From a virus, in the IMG/VR virus record IMGVR_UViG_3300029267_001796, positions 1 to 20,797 of that record: a stretch of 20,797 nucleotides of DNA; one strand, 5' to 3'. Of the stretch, positions 14,151-20,797 are shown piece by piece. Each line of letters starts with the position of its first letter. Within the stretch, counting starts at the first letter, position 1. The notes below the pieces were generated by a model. The model saw only the letters and a program-made list of their open reading frames with translations, searched no databases and was not told where the DNA came from. A program made the translations under genes and the position numbers.

Positions 14151-15587
14151 ATGGCACTCTCTTATGACCATCTGTTCCGTGACATCGGCGAAGTAATTGA
14201 GGCCATTGATGACCTGCTGGATTTCGCCGATGGAACCGCTGCAATCGACCTGGTGAACATGGAAGATGAGATCAGCGACCAGTTCATCGACGAAACGGAT
14301 CTGGGGGATGGGGCTCTGGCTGCCAGGTATGACGTGCTAAGTGGTACGTCTGAGATGTTCATCGGATTCAAGGATGCTGTGATTGGCTGGATTACCAGCC
14401 TCGGCTCTCTGGCGGAAGAAAGGCTACGGGATTATGACACCGTGCTGGATGAGATGAACCTGACGAAGGACGTGACCACGGAAGACCTGCTGGAGGAACT
14501 GTATCGGAAGATGGTGGACGATGGAGAAGACGTGGACCAGAGTACGGTGACGGTTGGTGCTGCCACGGTGATTGATGGGAACGGGGATGGGGTGGTACTC
14601 AACACGAAACTGTTGGATGGATCAAGTGCCCCAAGTAGCGGCTGGCCTGTCATTCCTGATTATGCCCAGGACTTGAGCAATGCGGCCGGGGCAGGAAGAA
14701 TGCCTGGCGAGAACGCAGCCTATACGGGAACGGATTCGGAATTGGGTGTGGTCAGTGAGACCATGACCTTGACGTGCATTCAGGATTCGGAAACGGATGG
14801 GGTGGATGAAGGATCGGAAGTGTTCTCCTGGTCAGGAGAAGAAGGGGATGAGAATTACAGTTGGGAGGCAGAAGGAAGTGGGCTAGGCCCTAGCGTGACC
14901 GTAGCGAATGGGGCGGGGATCATTACGGATGGGGAGTTCGAGTATTTCACAAGTGACGACCCGGACTATTGGACAATCGACAATGGGACGGCTTCAACCC
15001 ACATCTTGGAGAACACTGCAAGTGAGCATCGTGGTAGTGCTTGCTTGGAGTATGCTGGCGATGGGGCACAAGCTACCATTGAAATCCATCAGGATGTGTC
15101 GGACTTGACGCCATTGCGGAGGTATTTCGTTGGTTGTTGGGTGAAGGGGACGGCTGGAATTGTGGCAGGTGATTTGACGATTGAGATGGAAGGGACGGGA
15201 TACACGGCGGGGACAACGGAAAAGATCAGCATGAACTCAGCAGCCCTGGCTGCTCAAGTAGCATGGGATGAGGAGTATTTCTTCTTCACGGCACCGGCTG
15301 AAATCCCAAGCGACTTCAAGCTGGTTGTGAAGGTGGAGAACACCCTGACGAATGCAAAGAGTGTTTACGTGGATGGGTTGGCGTTGGCACCCGTCGAGTA
15401 CCACGGTGGCGTTGGGGTTGCGATCCTTGCGGGCAACGCGAAGTTTATCCGAGGGGATCGGTCCACATTCACCGTGGCAAACGACGCTGCTGGCACGTTC
15501 CAGGAGTTCTTCCGAAAGAACTTCAGGGTCCAGTTGCCAAGTGACGGGGCTGCCGGGGAAAGCATTTCCGATGCTTGGGCAGAGTAA
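14151..15587 (+). CDS. Acidic protein with carbohydrate-binding-type domain, only plus-strand gene (478 aa)
   Basis: This is the only convincing gene on the plus strand. The start follows AAAGGAATTAGCCC. Residues 1-125 are helical and acidic (IGEVIEAIDDLLDFADG, LLEELYRKMVDDGEDVD). Residues 130-250 are low-complexity, Gly/Ser/Asp/Glu-rich with short strands. Residues about 256-418 look like a CBM4/9-type jelly roll: DGEFEYF, then W-x-x-DNG-x-AS, ENTASEHRGSACLEYAGDGA, IHQDVSDLTPLRRYFVGCW and a closing SVYVDGLALAPV. Residues 420-478 form a C-terminal tail with an FRKNFRVQLPS segment. A sugar-binding virion accessory protein is the best guess. It sits between terminase and protease genes, where a portal gene is normally found, and ends 14 bases before the end of the convergent 117-aa gene. 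Confidence 0.8.
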   Translation: MALSYDHLFRDIGEVIEAIDDLLDFADGTAAIDLVNMEDEISDQFIDETDLGDGALAARYDVLSGTSEMFIGFKDAVIGWITSLGSLAEERLRDYDTVLDEMNLTKDVTTEDLLEELYRKMVDDGEDVDQSTVTVGAATVIDGNGDGVVLNTKLLDGSSAPSSGWPVIPDYAQDLSNAAGAGRMPGENAAYTGTDSELGVVSETMTLTCIQDSETDGVDEGSEVFSWSGEEGDENYSWEAEGSGLGPSVTVANGAGIITDGEFEYFTSDDPDYWTIDNGTASTHILENTASEHRGSACLEYAGDGAQATIEIHQDVSDLTPLRRYFVGCWVKGTAGIVAGDLTIEMEGTGYTAGTTEKISMNSAALAAQVAWDEEYFFFTAPAEIPSDFKLVVKVENTLTNAKSVYVDGLALAPVEYHGGVGVAILAGNAKFIRGDRSTFTVANDAAGTFQEFFRKNFRVQLPSDGAAGESISDAWAE

Positions 15588-15975: not shown

Positions 15976-17496
15976 TTAGGATACGACCATCGGTGTATGA
16001 TCGCTTTGATCGTTTGGTACCTCGAACAAGCTGGCACCACAGGACGTTACTAATTCGAGGAAGCAGATACCGGCATAGGCCAGTGTGTCTACTTGGTCGG
16101 CAGTTTCCTTTGGATCACCTGTCCAGGTGAATATCTCTTGTTCCCATTTGCGAAGCCATGGGGCGTACTTTTCTCTGGGGAAGAAAACCTTCCCACGTTC
16201 CATCTGATTGGCCGCGGTGGTGGCACGCACGAGCTTGTCCTGTGATGCGGGGCGAAGGTCCTTGACCGGGAAGCCTTCTGCCGCTAGGAGTTGGAACAAG
16301 CCGATGCCCAAGCCGTTGGCTTCAACACCGACGAAGAGTAGCCGGCCGGAACCCATGACCTTCGGTAAGTTGGAGCCCGGTTGGTTGGTCGCGTGCTTCC
16401 GGCAGTTCATGCGGATGCGTTGTAGGACCTCGGGGGTTTCTGCTTGGAAGCGGTCTACATCCCATAGGAGCAGATCCCATTGGGGCGTGATGCACCAAGT
16501 AGAGATGACGGTCCAGGAGGGTTCACGCTGCCATAGCAGTGCATCCGCCGGACCTTCCCGAACAGAGGCAGCAGGGTCAATGGTTTGGAAGAACACGCAA
16601 TCATGGACGTAGTGGGTGCGTCCGTCCTCAAGGACGATGACCAGGTGGTCGTCCGTGAAGCCATAGTATTTAGCCCAGGACCTCCGGAAACGACTGTCGG
16701 GACTGACGCCCCAGTCACCGTTTAGAAGTTGTTCGCGGGTAATGGGGTCAAGCTCTTGAAGGGATTCGATGTATTCCCCTTGATCGAGGAATGGGTTGTC
16801 TGAAATGAAGGCTGGGATGTGGGGACGTTGGGGGTGGGTTCCCCGGTAGATAGGCCCAACACGTTCGATCTGGAAACGCTCTTGAACCCAACCATGACCT
16901 ACACCACCGGGGTTGGAGGCTGAACGAACACGCAAGGGGATCTTGGACTGTTGGGCAAACTCACGACAGGTAGGGCAGTTGGGATTGGGCTGTTGTTGGT
17001 GTTCGGGACAATGGCCCCTACGAAGACGGGAGAACAGGTAGGTGTAGTCCCATTCCCAGTGCTGTGTGAGTTCATCGAAGCCGATGAATTGGAAGGCCGA
17101 TGACTGATAGCGGTACCGATCCATCGGGCCATTGAGGTAGCCGAACTGTAGCACGGCACCTGACGGGAACGTCCATTTGTTGAGTGAACCATTCCAATGG
17201 GCGTCCGATTGAGAAAGCCACTGGTGAGAGCGTGGGATCAGGGCTTCCTCAAGTTGTAAGTCGGTGAGGGTCTTGCGGAACAGTAGGGCAGAATAGCGTG
17301 GTACGTCCACGTATTGGAGGGCTGCCATTAACAGGGCGTCCGACTTGCCACCACCTGCCGCACCCCCATAGAACGCTTCCCGATGAGGTAGCATGAGAAA
17401 GCATAGTTGCCTGGCTGTTGGCCGGTGTGGGATGTACTCCGACCAGTGCAGACATCGCCAGAACTTTCGTTGTGCCTCAATCGGGATAGCAGTCAC
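15976..17496 (-). CDS. terL: Terminase large subunit (TerL)
   Basis: The 506-aa packaging motor subunit has a Walker A motif GGAAGGGKS at residues 44-52, an adenine/arginine strand ALLFRKT at 70-76, a Walker B FQFIGFDEL at 135-143, the coupling motif RSASNPGG at 191-198, and a probable RNase H-like nuclease start QTIDPAAS (D307), with a second acidic strand DLLLWDVDRF (residues 341-350). It cuts concatemeric DNA and drives it into the prohead. Between Walker B and the coupling motif is an insert with HC at 162-163 and CPTC at 174-177, which could bind zinc. It begins at a GTG that overlaps the upstream stop as TAGTG; no ATG and only a weak ribosome binding site are nearby, so translational coupling is likely. 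Confidence 0.93.
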   Translation of the reverse strand: MTAIPIEAQRKFWRCLHWSEYIPHRPTARQLCFLMLPHREAFYGGAAGGGKSDALLMAALQYVDVPRYSALLFRKTLTDLQLEEALIPRSHQWLSQSDAHWNGSLNKWTFPSGAVLQFGYLNGPMDRYRYQSSAFQFIGFDELTQHWEWDYTYLFSRLRRGHCPEHQQQPNPNCPTCREFAQQSKIPLRVRSASNPGGVGHGWVQERFQIERVGPIYRGTHPQRPHIPAFISDNPFLDQGEYIESLQELDPITREQLLNGDWGVSPDSRFRRSWAKYYGFTDDHLVIVLEDGRTHYVHDCVFFQTIDPAASVREGPADALLWQREPSWTVISTWCITPQWDLLLWDVDRFQAETPEVLQRIRMNCRKHATNQPGSNLPKVMGSGRLLFVGVEANGLGIGLFQLLAAEGFPVKDLRPASQDKLVRATTAANQMERGKVFFPREKYAPWLRKWEQEIFTWTGDPKETADQVDTLAYAGICFLELVTSCGASLFEVPNDQSDHTPMVVS

Positions 17497-18185: not shown

Positions 18186-18422
18186 TTAACCTAGTTTCTT
18201 GACGTGCGTTCCTTCTGGGAGAGAAGGGGGATTCAGCTTGTGAAACAAGACGCGGCAACCTGCCCTTGCCGGATAGAGTCCGACGAAGGTGTAGCCGGTC
18301 AGATCGCCACCTTCCGCTTCGATGGCTTTGATGAGGATTTGTGCCATTTCTTCATGGCTGAAAACGTAACCGCGGGCTTCAGAACATTGCATGGTAGACC
18401 TCTTGATTAAAACGTCTTGCAT
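18186..18422 (-). CDS. Small hypothetical protein with two possible starts (78 or 68 aa)
   Basis: Two in-frame ATGs, at 18422 and 18392, each have a ribosome binding site at the same spacing (AGGAGGTCTATC and AGAGGTCTACC). They lie within a 30-bp-spaced duplication described separately. From the first start the product is 78 aa, from the second 68 aa. The common part has a helix SHEEMAQILIKAIEAEGGD followed by strands (YTFVGLYPARAGCRVLFHK) and a proline-rich end. The family is not recognised. It is the first gene downstream of the pentamer array, so any regulatory effect of the array on transcription would act on this gene first. Confidence 0.65.
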   Translation of the reverse strand: MQDVLIKRSTMQCSEARGYVFSHEEMAQILIKAIEAEGGDLTGYTFVGLYPARAGCRVLFHKLNPPSLPEGTHVKKLG

Positions 18423-18438
18423 GATAGACCTCCTGACT
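18387..18438. repeat. Two near-identical copies of a translation start region, 30 bp apart
   Basis: The 22-base segments at 18387-18408 and 18417-18438 match at 19 of 22 positions. On the minus strand each contains a purine-rich ribosome binding site and an ATG; both ATGs are in frame with the 78-aa gene. It appears to be a local tandem duplication of the initiation region. Confidence 0.8.
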
Positions 18439-18457
18439 GAAGGGGTTGGTGAAAACC

Positions 18458-18708
18458 ATTCCGATCCCTTCCATTCCTATCCGCTTCACTTCGTTACTAT
18501 CCGTTCCGCTACTTTCCACTTCCATCCGCTCCTTTCCGTTCCGATCCTCTACTTTCCATTCCCATCCGATCCAATCCGTTCCGCTCCGCTGGATGGATAA
18601 GGGCAACCATTGCTTTCCATTCCCGTCCCCTCCCCTCCTCTCCCGTCCCATCCACTACCTTCCATTCCCGTCCTGTCCATGCCCATCCAATCCAGTCCTA
18701 TCCACTAC
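18458..18708. repeat. Phased degenerate pentamer array, NNTCC on plus / GGANN on minus
   Basis: Two blocks of contiguous 5-bp units. Block 1 is 18458-18587 (26 units) and block 2 is 18614-18708 (19 units); a 26-base interruption (18588-18613) shifts the phase by one base. By hand count 36 of 45 units are exactly NNTCC, the third base is T in 44 and the fifth is C in all 45; most exceptions are NCTAC or NCTTC. The first two bases are almost free. The array ends on the TerS stop codon. All frames tend to stay open because of composition, but the 5-bp rhythm and lack of a ribosome binding site argue against a protein. Possible roles: packaging site, structured or protein-titrating RNA, or expanded simple repeat. 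Confidence 0.85.
18622..18649 (-). other. Potential G-quadruplex in the pentamer array
   Basis: On the minus strand five runs of three or four G (GGG, GGG, GGGG, GGGG, GGG) are separated by loops of 1 to 6 bases. This fits the canonical quadruplex pattern. It would form in the transcribed (minus-sense) RNA or the G-rich DNA strand. Confidence 0.55.
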
Positions 18709-19469
18709 ACCGCTTCTCCGTTTCCGTCTGTTTCTGCGTCAACGTCTACCACGTCTTCACCGTTCTGTTGTTCGAGGGCGTTGAAGACACGTTGACCTTC
18801 TTCTGTTGCTTCGATCAGTCCGAGTTCCTGGAACAAGTACAATGCACCGGCAAGGGTTTCTTCATCTGCTGGGAACTGTTCTTTCTGAGTGACTTCAACA
18901 TCGTGTTGTAGCGTTCCACCGATCTGAATGTTGGGCGACCAGTCCTGTTTTGCAGAGCCATGCGTCAACCACCATTTCGGATCTTCTTTCGCAACAGCAA
19001 CCTCTGCCAAAAGCCTGGCCTTACCTTTCGCTTCCTCAACATCTTCGAGAAATCCCAGGTAGATGAATCCATTGGGCGGTTCGATCAAGTCATTTGGATC
19101 AGGTTGTAAGTCTTCCTCTTCGCATTGTTCTAGCCTGGACAATCGTTCACGCTCTTTCCTTCCCTTGTTCAACCAGGCATAGAACGTCTTGGCGTTTACA
19201 CCAAGGGAGGCTGCTGCTACATGGTCGTAGGCCCCTGCTTCTATGTAGCGAAGGAACCTGTTGTAACTCTCTGCACTTAGGGTTTCAAGGCGAAGACGCT
19301 TCCTTGGCTTCCCTTTCTGGCGGAGAATAGTAGCAGCCGTTAGTAATGGATTATGGGTGTCATCAGGGTTGCCGTTTCCATTGCCGTTTGAGTGACCATT
19401 GCCGGTGGTGTGTCTTAGCCCATCTTGGTCTTTGTCTTGGTCTTCCGGGCCCATTGGGTGTTTGGCCAT
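18705..19469 (-). CDS. terS: Terminase small subunit (TerS)
   Basis: The start at 19469 (254 aa) is chosen for ACAGGAATCGAGCC upstream; longer versions lack a site and run into the terminator. Residues 15-40 are Gly/Asn/Asp-rich and disordered. Residues about 62-108 form a helix-turn-helix: RFLRYIEAGAYDHVAAASLG, then VNAKTFYAWLNKGRKE. Residues about 145-185 (FLEDVEEAKGKARLLAEVAVAKEDPKWWLTHG) match the helical core often seen in small terminases, ending near a W-W motif, and the segment after contains DWSPN. The C-terminal 60 residues are acidic. TerS recognises the packaging site and recruits TerL. Here TerL is separated by about 1.2 kb containing small genes and the pentamer array, unlike the usual adjacency. 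Confidence 0.8.
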   Translation of the reverse strand: MAKHPMGPEDQDKDQDGLRHTTGNGHSNGNGNGNPDDTHNPLLTAATILRQKGKPRKRLRLETLSAESYNRFLRYIEAGAYDHVAAASLGVNAKTFYAWLNKGRKERERLSRLEQCEEEDLQPDPNDLIEPPNGFIYLGFLEDVEEAKGKARLLAEVAVAKEDPKWWLTHGSAKQDWSPNIQIGGTLQHDVEVTQKEQFPADEETLAGALYLFQELGLIEATEEGQRVFNALEQQNGEDVVDVDAETDGNGEAV

Positions 19470-19555
19470 GGCTCGATTCCTGTTGTCACATTTGCCAAAG
19501 TGTCCAGTCCGAAGAAACCAAACTTCTGCTAAGATAGTGTAGAGGTATGGGCATG

Positions 19556-19589
19556 AAAAAACCACCCCCCACTTCAGGTGAAGGGTGGT
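19556..19589 (-). terminator. Intrinsic terminator upstream of TerS
   Basis: On the minus strand ACCACCC pairs with GGGTGGT, with an inner CAC/GTG extension and a 5-base loop, followed by six T. It would end transcripts from the DUF4417-like and 52-aa genes, so TerS needs its own promoter or read-through. I see no convincing promoter between it and TerS. Confidence 0.8.
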
Positions 19590-19643
19590 CAGTCTCAAGC
19601 CTGGTCATTTGACCGGCTTACCCAACCCCCACGATTGGCTCAA

Positions 19644-19815: not shown

Positions 19816-20559
19816 TCAGGCTGTCGGGGCAAGCCTACCTTGCCTCTGTTTCCGGGCTTTGACCACTTGATCCTGCATGTAGCTTCGGGTGGGAACCCAG
19901 GTGCAGGGGCCTACTTTGGTTGCCCACTCTTTTGCTACTTTATCGGTCCTAGCCCACAGCCAAATTGGGGTTTTGGGCCAGCGACTCACAAGCCACCTGG
20001 CCCCTTTCCAAAACTGGGTACGTCCCCATTCTATACCCTTTTGGTGGTGAGCGTCAATAAGAATTGGGCCGGGGAAGCTATCCGGCCACCATCCCGACCA
20101 TATCTCCAGCCACCCATCCAGGGCCAAAATGCCGACGTTGGGAATCAGGGAAAATCCCGCCTTGATGAAATCGGAGGAGACTACGGCTGATCGGTAGACC
20201 TGATATAGCTGGTAGATGAGGGGTTGGAACTTCCAGGCTGAGAAGTCTGGGCTGACAACCTTGGAGATGCCACGCTCCTGCAACCAGGCTACCTTTTTCA
20301 GGAATAGATGACCTTTCCAGAGTGGTTCGATCAGGTTGTCTTCGCACAGGAAATGGACGATGCACTTTTTCGGATCACCACCTGCCTCGAAATACCGCTT
20401 CACGTCCCATCCATCACAACGAACTAGATAGTTGAGGTTGTAGTCCGTTCTGATCCCTGGCATCCATCCAATGGCATCCATTGCAGGAAGATGGCCCAAT
20501 GAGATGCAACCTTCCCCACTGATTTGTGGGAAGCCAAGACTGGTTGGGCTGAGGTTCAT
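19816..20559 (-). CDS. DUF4417-like protein (247 aa)
   Basis: The ATG at 20559 follows GGAGGAATAACGCA, which overlaps the upstream gene's last codons; an earlier in-frame start would lie inside that gene. The central part matches DUF4417 as I know it: a strand with IVHFLCEDNLIEPLW, VVSPDFSAWKFQPLIYQLYQ (the conserved PDFS with hydrophobic/aromatic followers), YRSAVVSSDFIKAGFSLIPN and later WLVSRWPKTPIWLW. The N-terminus has YNLNYLVRCDGWDVKRYFE. The function of DUF4417 is unknown; it occurs in phages and bacterial mobile elements. Not a recognised enzyme, although PDFS...IPN resembles a TIM-barrel-like strand order. It precedes the 52-aa gene in the same transcript. Confidence 0.7.
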   Translation of the reverse strand: MNLSPTSLGFPQISGEGCISLGHLPAMDAIGWMPGIRTDYNLNYLVRCDGWDVKRYFEAGGDPKKCIVHFLCEDNLIEPLWKGHLFLKKVAWLQERGISKVVSPDFSAWKFQPLIYQLYQVYRSAVVSSDFIKAGFSLIPNVGILALDGWLEIWSGWWPDSFPGPILIDAHHQKGIEWGRTQFWKGARWLVSRWPKTPIWLWARTDKVAKEWATKVGPCTWVPTRSYMQDQVVKARKQRQGRLAPTA

Positions 20560-20563
20560 TGCG

Positions 20564-20797
20564 TTATTCCTCCGCGTGGTCCCTTGGTGCCTTTGGAAAA
20601 TCAGCACCTAAGTCAAGGGCCTCATCTGATAGATGGGATGGGGGTTCACCTTCCCGAAGCCAATCAACAACACCCTGGAGATCAAGATCGGTTTGCAACA
20701 GGAAGTCCGCTACTTTGTTTTGCTCCCGATTAGTTCGGAACCATAGATACAGGTTCACGAGGTTAAGTGTGATTGCCACCACACAAAGGACGATGGA
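20564..20797 (-). CDS. Membrane-anchored small protein, 5' end cut by window edge
   Basis: The frame is open to the right edge, so the true start lies outside. The first visible residues (SIVLCVVAITLNLVNLYLWF) form one transmembrane helix, followed by a soluble polar tail: FRTNREQNKVADFLLQTDLD, VVDWLREGEPPSHLSDEALD and an acidic end DHAEE. A GTG inside the hydrophobic stretch (20782) could start a shorter form but has no ribosome binding site. Its last codons contain the ribosome binding site of the DUF4417-like gene. No family recognised. Confidence 0.6.
   Translation of the reverse strand, partial: SIVLCVVAITLNLVNLYLWFRTNREQNKVADFLLQTDLDLQGVVDWLREGEPPSHLSDEALDLGADFPKAPRDHAEE

Follow-up and report, generated by a model that had tools for sequence, protein, structure and literature searches.

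What is the role of a degenerate pentameric array that directly follows the terminase small subunit gene of a phage? We addressed this question using a linear IMG/VR virus record of 20,797 bases, which was analysed over its entire length and is referred to here as the window. The window is a fragment of a tailed phage genome, with terS, terL and a match to a major tail protein; almost all of its large ORFs are encoded on the minus strand. The record ends 1.2 kb upstream of terS, and no relatives were recovered from IMG/VR with the window TerL as bait. The two tracts of the array are bounded by the terS stop codon (18705) on one side and a small ORF (18422) on the other, in the following arrangement:

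15976–17496, minus strand: terL (phrog_979, E 2.9e-63)
18415–18459, minus strand: second tail, ATGGTTTTCACCAACCCCTTCAGTCAGGAGGTC..., resembling the array ends of contig L133 (ATGGTTTTCACACTTTCACACAAGGGGACTATC)
18460–18589, minus strand: tract 2, 26 pentamers; first G in 26/26, second G in 20/26, A in 26/26
18590–18615, minus strand: boundary (tail) element of 26 bp between the tracts, AAGCAATGGTTGCCCTTATCCATCCA, matching the boundaries in contigs L133 and L128; not part of the array
18616–18705, minus strand: tract 1, 18 GGANN pentamers; first G in 18/18, second G in 17/18, A in 17/18
18705–19598, minus strand: terS (phrog_4102, E 1.9e-11)

The terS gene is located upstream of the array on the same strand, and the two are perhaps co-transcribed. 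Immediately upstream of terS, the window encodes a DUF4417 protein (PF14386, with a further match to phrog_940, nuclease; 19816–20607, minus strand), and a strong terminator-like hairpin with a T run lies between these two genes, at the predicted terS start (19560–19590, minus strand). A 478-aa ORF (14151–15587, plus strand) runs against the direction of almost all other large ORFs.

The self-identity of region 18458–18708 at lag 5 is 0.589, compared to 0.318 ± 0.028 in 2000 dinucleotide-preserving shuffles (z 9.8; shuffle maximum 0.398), and is also high at lags 10, 15, 20, 25 and 30; nowhere in the rest of the window does the lag-5 signal approach this level. Chance low complexity is thereby ruled out, as the original prediction had held. 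The sense unit is GGANN on the minus strand, that is, the strand of the genes, again as proposed, and across the 44 units, the first G is present in all 44, the second in 37 and the A in 43. By contrast, the NN positions are nearly free, with a summed entropy of about 3.4–3.5 of 4 bits, and this retention of the core next to two unconstrained bases bears out the claim that the array did not arise by slippage. Equally correct was the placement of the array against terS: the first unit of tract 1 directly follows the TerS stop codon (GTG TAG TGGATAGGACTGG...), and the NN series of this tract reads TA CT TT TG AT CA CG AT AG GT TG CG GA GG GG CG AT (AA AT). The description of two phased tracts also stands (18 + 26 = 44 units, with the boundary element in between), but tract 2 is less regular than claimed, with an exact GGA in 77% of the units and interrupting GTAGN and GAAGN units inside.

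Scans of IMG/VR with a (TCCNN)x8 pattern and its non-periodic version picked up long degenerate arrays as well as simple repeats. The former, in which GGA is nearly invariant and NN approaches maximum entropy, are found in dozens of viral contigs and have up to 37 perfect cores in a row; for instance, the L128 array consists of 37/37 perfect cores with an NN entropy of 3.88 of 4 bits, and L133 carries arrays at five places within 6.4 kb. The arrays listed for each contig share one orientation, with GGA mostly on the same strand as the neighbouring genes, and often start right at a stop codon. In GTDB, a 9-unit non-periodic pattern yielded no hits and a shorter one recovered 14 loci, so that arrays are few in these genomes; two of them, the Spongiibacteraceae MAG L137 and the Zixibacteria MAG L144, combine long degenerate arrays with a gene for the protein Vipr, discussed below. 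The architecture of the loci varies. Compact arrays comprising 12–19 guides, mostly of 10–13 units each, are present in L031 (10500–11780), L127 (3701–4606) and L137 (4450–5362), where the guides are separated by a short constant sequence, in the sense orientation CGGCTGTAAT or GGCCGTAAA. In L123 (6640–7123), three arrays are interspersed with copies of a tRNA-3′-end-like sequence (GGCGATGCGGGAGTCGAACCC...), and in L062 (6750–8466), a repeated hairpin (CCGCCGTCGCAGAAATGTGACGGCGG), which is not an Rfam family, follows the arrays. An Rfam search on ten array loci detected one unrelated c4-2 RNA and nothing else.

Comparison of the genes located beside the arrays revealed a common protein family of about 190 aa, and all nine members scanned match phrog_4652, a family of unknown function. 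This family is encoded in 24 of the 29 other array-bearing records versus none of the 35 records whose TCCNN repeats are simple or short (p about 5e-13 by a hypergeometric count that ignores relatedness). A profile built from ten members matches PDB 36pp, ‘SUSP1 Vipr protein’, with an E-value of 1.8e-35 (1.3e-31 for a single member), and also shows a weak match to Csm5 (E 0.15). A scan of the same kind recovered the arrays of SUSP1, with a GGT core, and GGC or GGY arrays were found beside Vipr in five of the six further named phages checked; in Medea1, no array passed the filter. Among these phages, Mycobacterium phage LittleE (L216), Gordonia phages MakoManhole (L215) and Trine (L218) and Pseudomonas phage LESphi2 (L217) carry unannotated GGC/NN arrays beside Vipr homologues. 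One phage record, L088 (G010), encodes two different Vipr homologues, at 21891–22481 and 34412–34987.

VIPR, which consists of the RAMP protein Vipr and vrRNA, was first reported in 2026, in phages whose repeats are of the GGY form; its type locus is in Escherichia phage SUSP1, it is a possible forerunner of CRISPR, and phages use it against rival phages (PMC13142463). The vrRNAs are tracts of GGY/NN pentamers, 9–16 repeats long, with a conserved 3′ tail, and their NN pairs are the guide letters, which read double-stranded DNA while skipping one base, resulting in the repression of competing phages; for SUSP1, a block of transcription upon VIPR binding has been established (PMC13142463). The array in the window shares with the SUSP1 system the pentamer pitch, the two fixed G residues and a fixed third base, the hypervariable NN, the sense-strand intergenic location in a phage genome and a 3′ boundary element, and its relatives encode a Vipr homologue. 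It differs in the third base, which is A in 43 of the 44 units rather than the published Y, although the published description also allows ‘a related consensus’ (PMC13142463), in the tract length (18 and 26 units rather than 9–16), in the sequence of the tail, in its position beside terS and in the absence of vipr from the fragment. With respect to length, the internal GTAGN units would split the tracts into pieces of about 8–11 units, and the GTAGN and GAAGN units of tract 2 may indicate that several guides overlap or are staggered.

The closest counterparts of the window array are those of L133 and L128, with which it shares the GGA core, a closely similar boundary (GGTTGYYCTYATC..CAT), long tracts and arrays abutting stop codons. 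The local score of its ends is 19 against the L133 ends (shuffle maximum 12) and 15 against the L128 ends (shuffle maximum 11), in both cases above all 200 shuffles. These two contigs differ from the window in that they carry vipr, and no phage genes common to the window and either of them were detected. Taken with the linkage of such arrays to Vipr, the match of the array ends makes it most likely that the window carries VIPR guides, in an array of a GGA subtype, and we consider it highly probable that the array also functions as such. Its assignment to VIPR is provisional, as the core has A where the published repeats have a pyrimidine and the fragment contains no vipr gene. The array and its tails are predicted to fold no more stably than shuffled sequences (fold z 0.96 and 0.16), as expected of a guide RNA; the matching ends showed no common fold, and the array region has no match in Rfam.

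By homology with SUSP1, a mechanism can be proposed. The minus strand would be transcribed along with the packaging genes into a purine-rich RNA, in which the fixed GGA, directly visible in the repeat, is followed each time by two guide bases. Along this RNA, the small RAMP protein Vipr would assemble, holding each GGA and presenting each NN to double-stranded DNA, such that the NN series would spell out a gapped target, and the bound complex would block the transcription of a competing phage or prophage. The arrangement recalls the class 1 CRISPR effectors, in which RAMP proteins (Cas7) also oligomerise on a guide RNA and the pairing is periodically interrupted, but with a six-nt period and a contiguous spacer; a CRISPR repeat-spacer array was not seen in the window.

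The proposed mechanism presumes that the vipr gene lies past the end of the fragment. No Vipr homologue was found in the 20.8-kb record, and five of the 29 other array records similarly lack a detectable one. Accordingly, the array could be an orphan or decaying guide array, either a relic or one served by Vipr from a helper phage or the host, a reading that overlaps with the functional guide array as its special case. The loss of the exact core in 23% of the tract 2 units would fit with decay, and satellites with their own vrRNAs have been reported (PMC13142463). Nevertheless, the first G is intact in 44/44 units and the A in 43/44, and imperfect units are also present in the functional SUSP1 arrays. 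Furthermore, the record is a linear fragment with only 1.2 kb of sequence upstream of terS, so that a vipr gene could plausibly be located just past its end; among the 11 viral records that contain both vipr and terL, the two genes are within 5 kb of each other in eight. On the whole, we regard an orphan array as unlikely.

The remaining alternatives fare far worse. Some pac sites contain repeats of a short core and, with the array lying against the terS stop codon, the original prediction pointed to a packaging signal (pac/cos) or an array of TerS-binding sites. However, equivalent arrays in the relatives are scattered among non-terminase genes, several per genome and mostly on the sense strand, and track the Vipr gene (24/29 records). 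Nor is the array kept beside terS in the relatives: TerS of the same family (phrog_4102) is encoded in only two of the 29 other array-bearing records. A role in packaging thus appears highly improbable. Even less credible is an RNA that titrates a regulator through many GGA sites, in the manner of the CsrA sponges CsrB and RsmZ. GGA is indeed the recognition core of CsrA/RsmA, but neither a rigid 5-nt pitch over 18–44 units nor linkage to a RAMP gene is a feature of such RNAs, and the array displays no unusual folding and no resemblance to any Rfam family. Finally, low-complexity or decayed coding sequence can be dismissed: ORFs of 112 aa (plus strand) and 90 aa (minus strand) span the array, but have no Pfam match, the plus-strand frame is open automatically because no stop codon can occur on the plus strand of a (TCCNN)n tract, and the lag-5 periodicity has to be reckoned with.

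If the window array is a VIPR guide array, the question is how the GGA arrays relate to the published ones. The third base of the repeat follows the Vipr phylogeny: on a tree of 32 proteins, it needs 3 changes versus 8.7 for shuffled labels. This sample is not neutral, since it was through their arrays that the GGA members were found; Medea1, which has no detected array, was treated as non-GGA. All arrays detected in the named phages are of the GGY type. L133 and L128, whose tails are the most similar to those of the window, fall among the GGA members, together with L062, L023, L079 and L153. Within the GGA units, the NN pairs carry a genomic neighbour signature (TA 0.78, AA 1.13, TT 1.21, AC 0.82, GT 0.83; z 5.4), as expected if they were copied from real targets. 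Across the unit junctions, TA is not depleted (1.04), which speaks against a contiguous, zero-skip reading.

The codon-phase test, which examines whether successive NN pairs of a guide stay in a single codon register, separates the two types. The 48 GGT guides of SUSP1-like phages give a signal at skip 1 (z 3.9 when the codon model is derived from these phages; 1.0 to 3.0 under the three models derived from the other loci) and none at skips 0, 2 and 3, skip 4 being the register of skip 1; this result agrees with the published one-skip rule and was obtained from the guide sequences alone. The 147 GGA guides, by contrast, give no signal at skip 1 (z -0.5), where simulated coding targets would yield a z of 5 to 13, and the signal is still absent from arrays limited to 9–16 units (z -0.9); once the number of tests is taken into account, the values near 2 obtained at other skips do not support a claim. 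GGA guides thus differ from those of SUSP1 in the absence of a codon-phase signature, so that their targets or read-out may differ: they may be aimed at non-coding DNA, be read differently or represent mixtures of overlapping guides. One possibility, which we put forward tentatively and with considerable doubt, is that GGA-type VIPR is a functionally distinct branch, in which Vipr holds GGA and the guides follow a different rule or are aimed at non-coding DNA, such as promoters, instead of codons whose wobble base is skipped. In IMG/VR, three one-skip patterns of 8 units taken from the window array had 29 exact matches, all ascribed to chance, as none extends along the guide, and 931 nine-unit guide windows from all arrays found no match in the collected array loci at skips 0–2.

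Taken together, these observations point to a GGA branch of VIPR spread over metagenomic phages, often near terminase genes, of which the window array was reached from raw sequence, without the protein. Such a branch offers a test of which features of the noncontiguous code hold in general. Moreover, arrays with three bases fixed, two free and a pitch of five are recognisable by themselves, and this offers a way to find VIPR in genome fragments that do not contain the protein.
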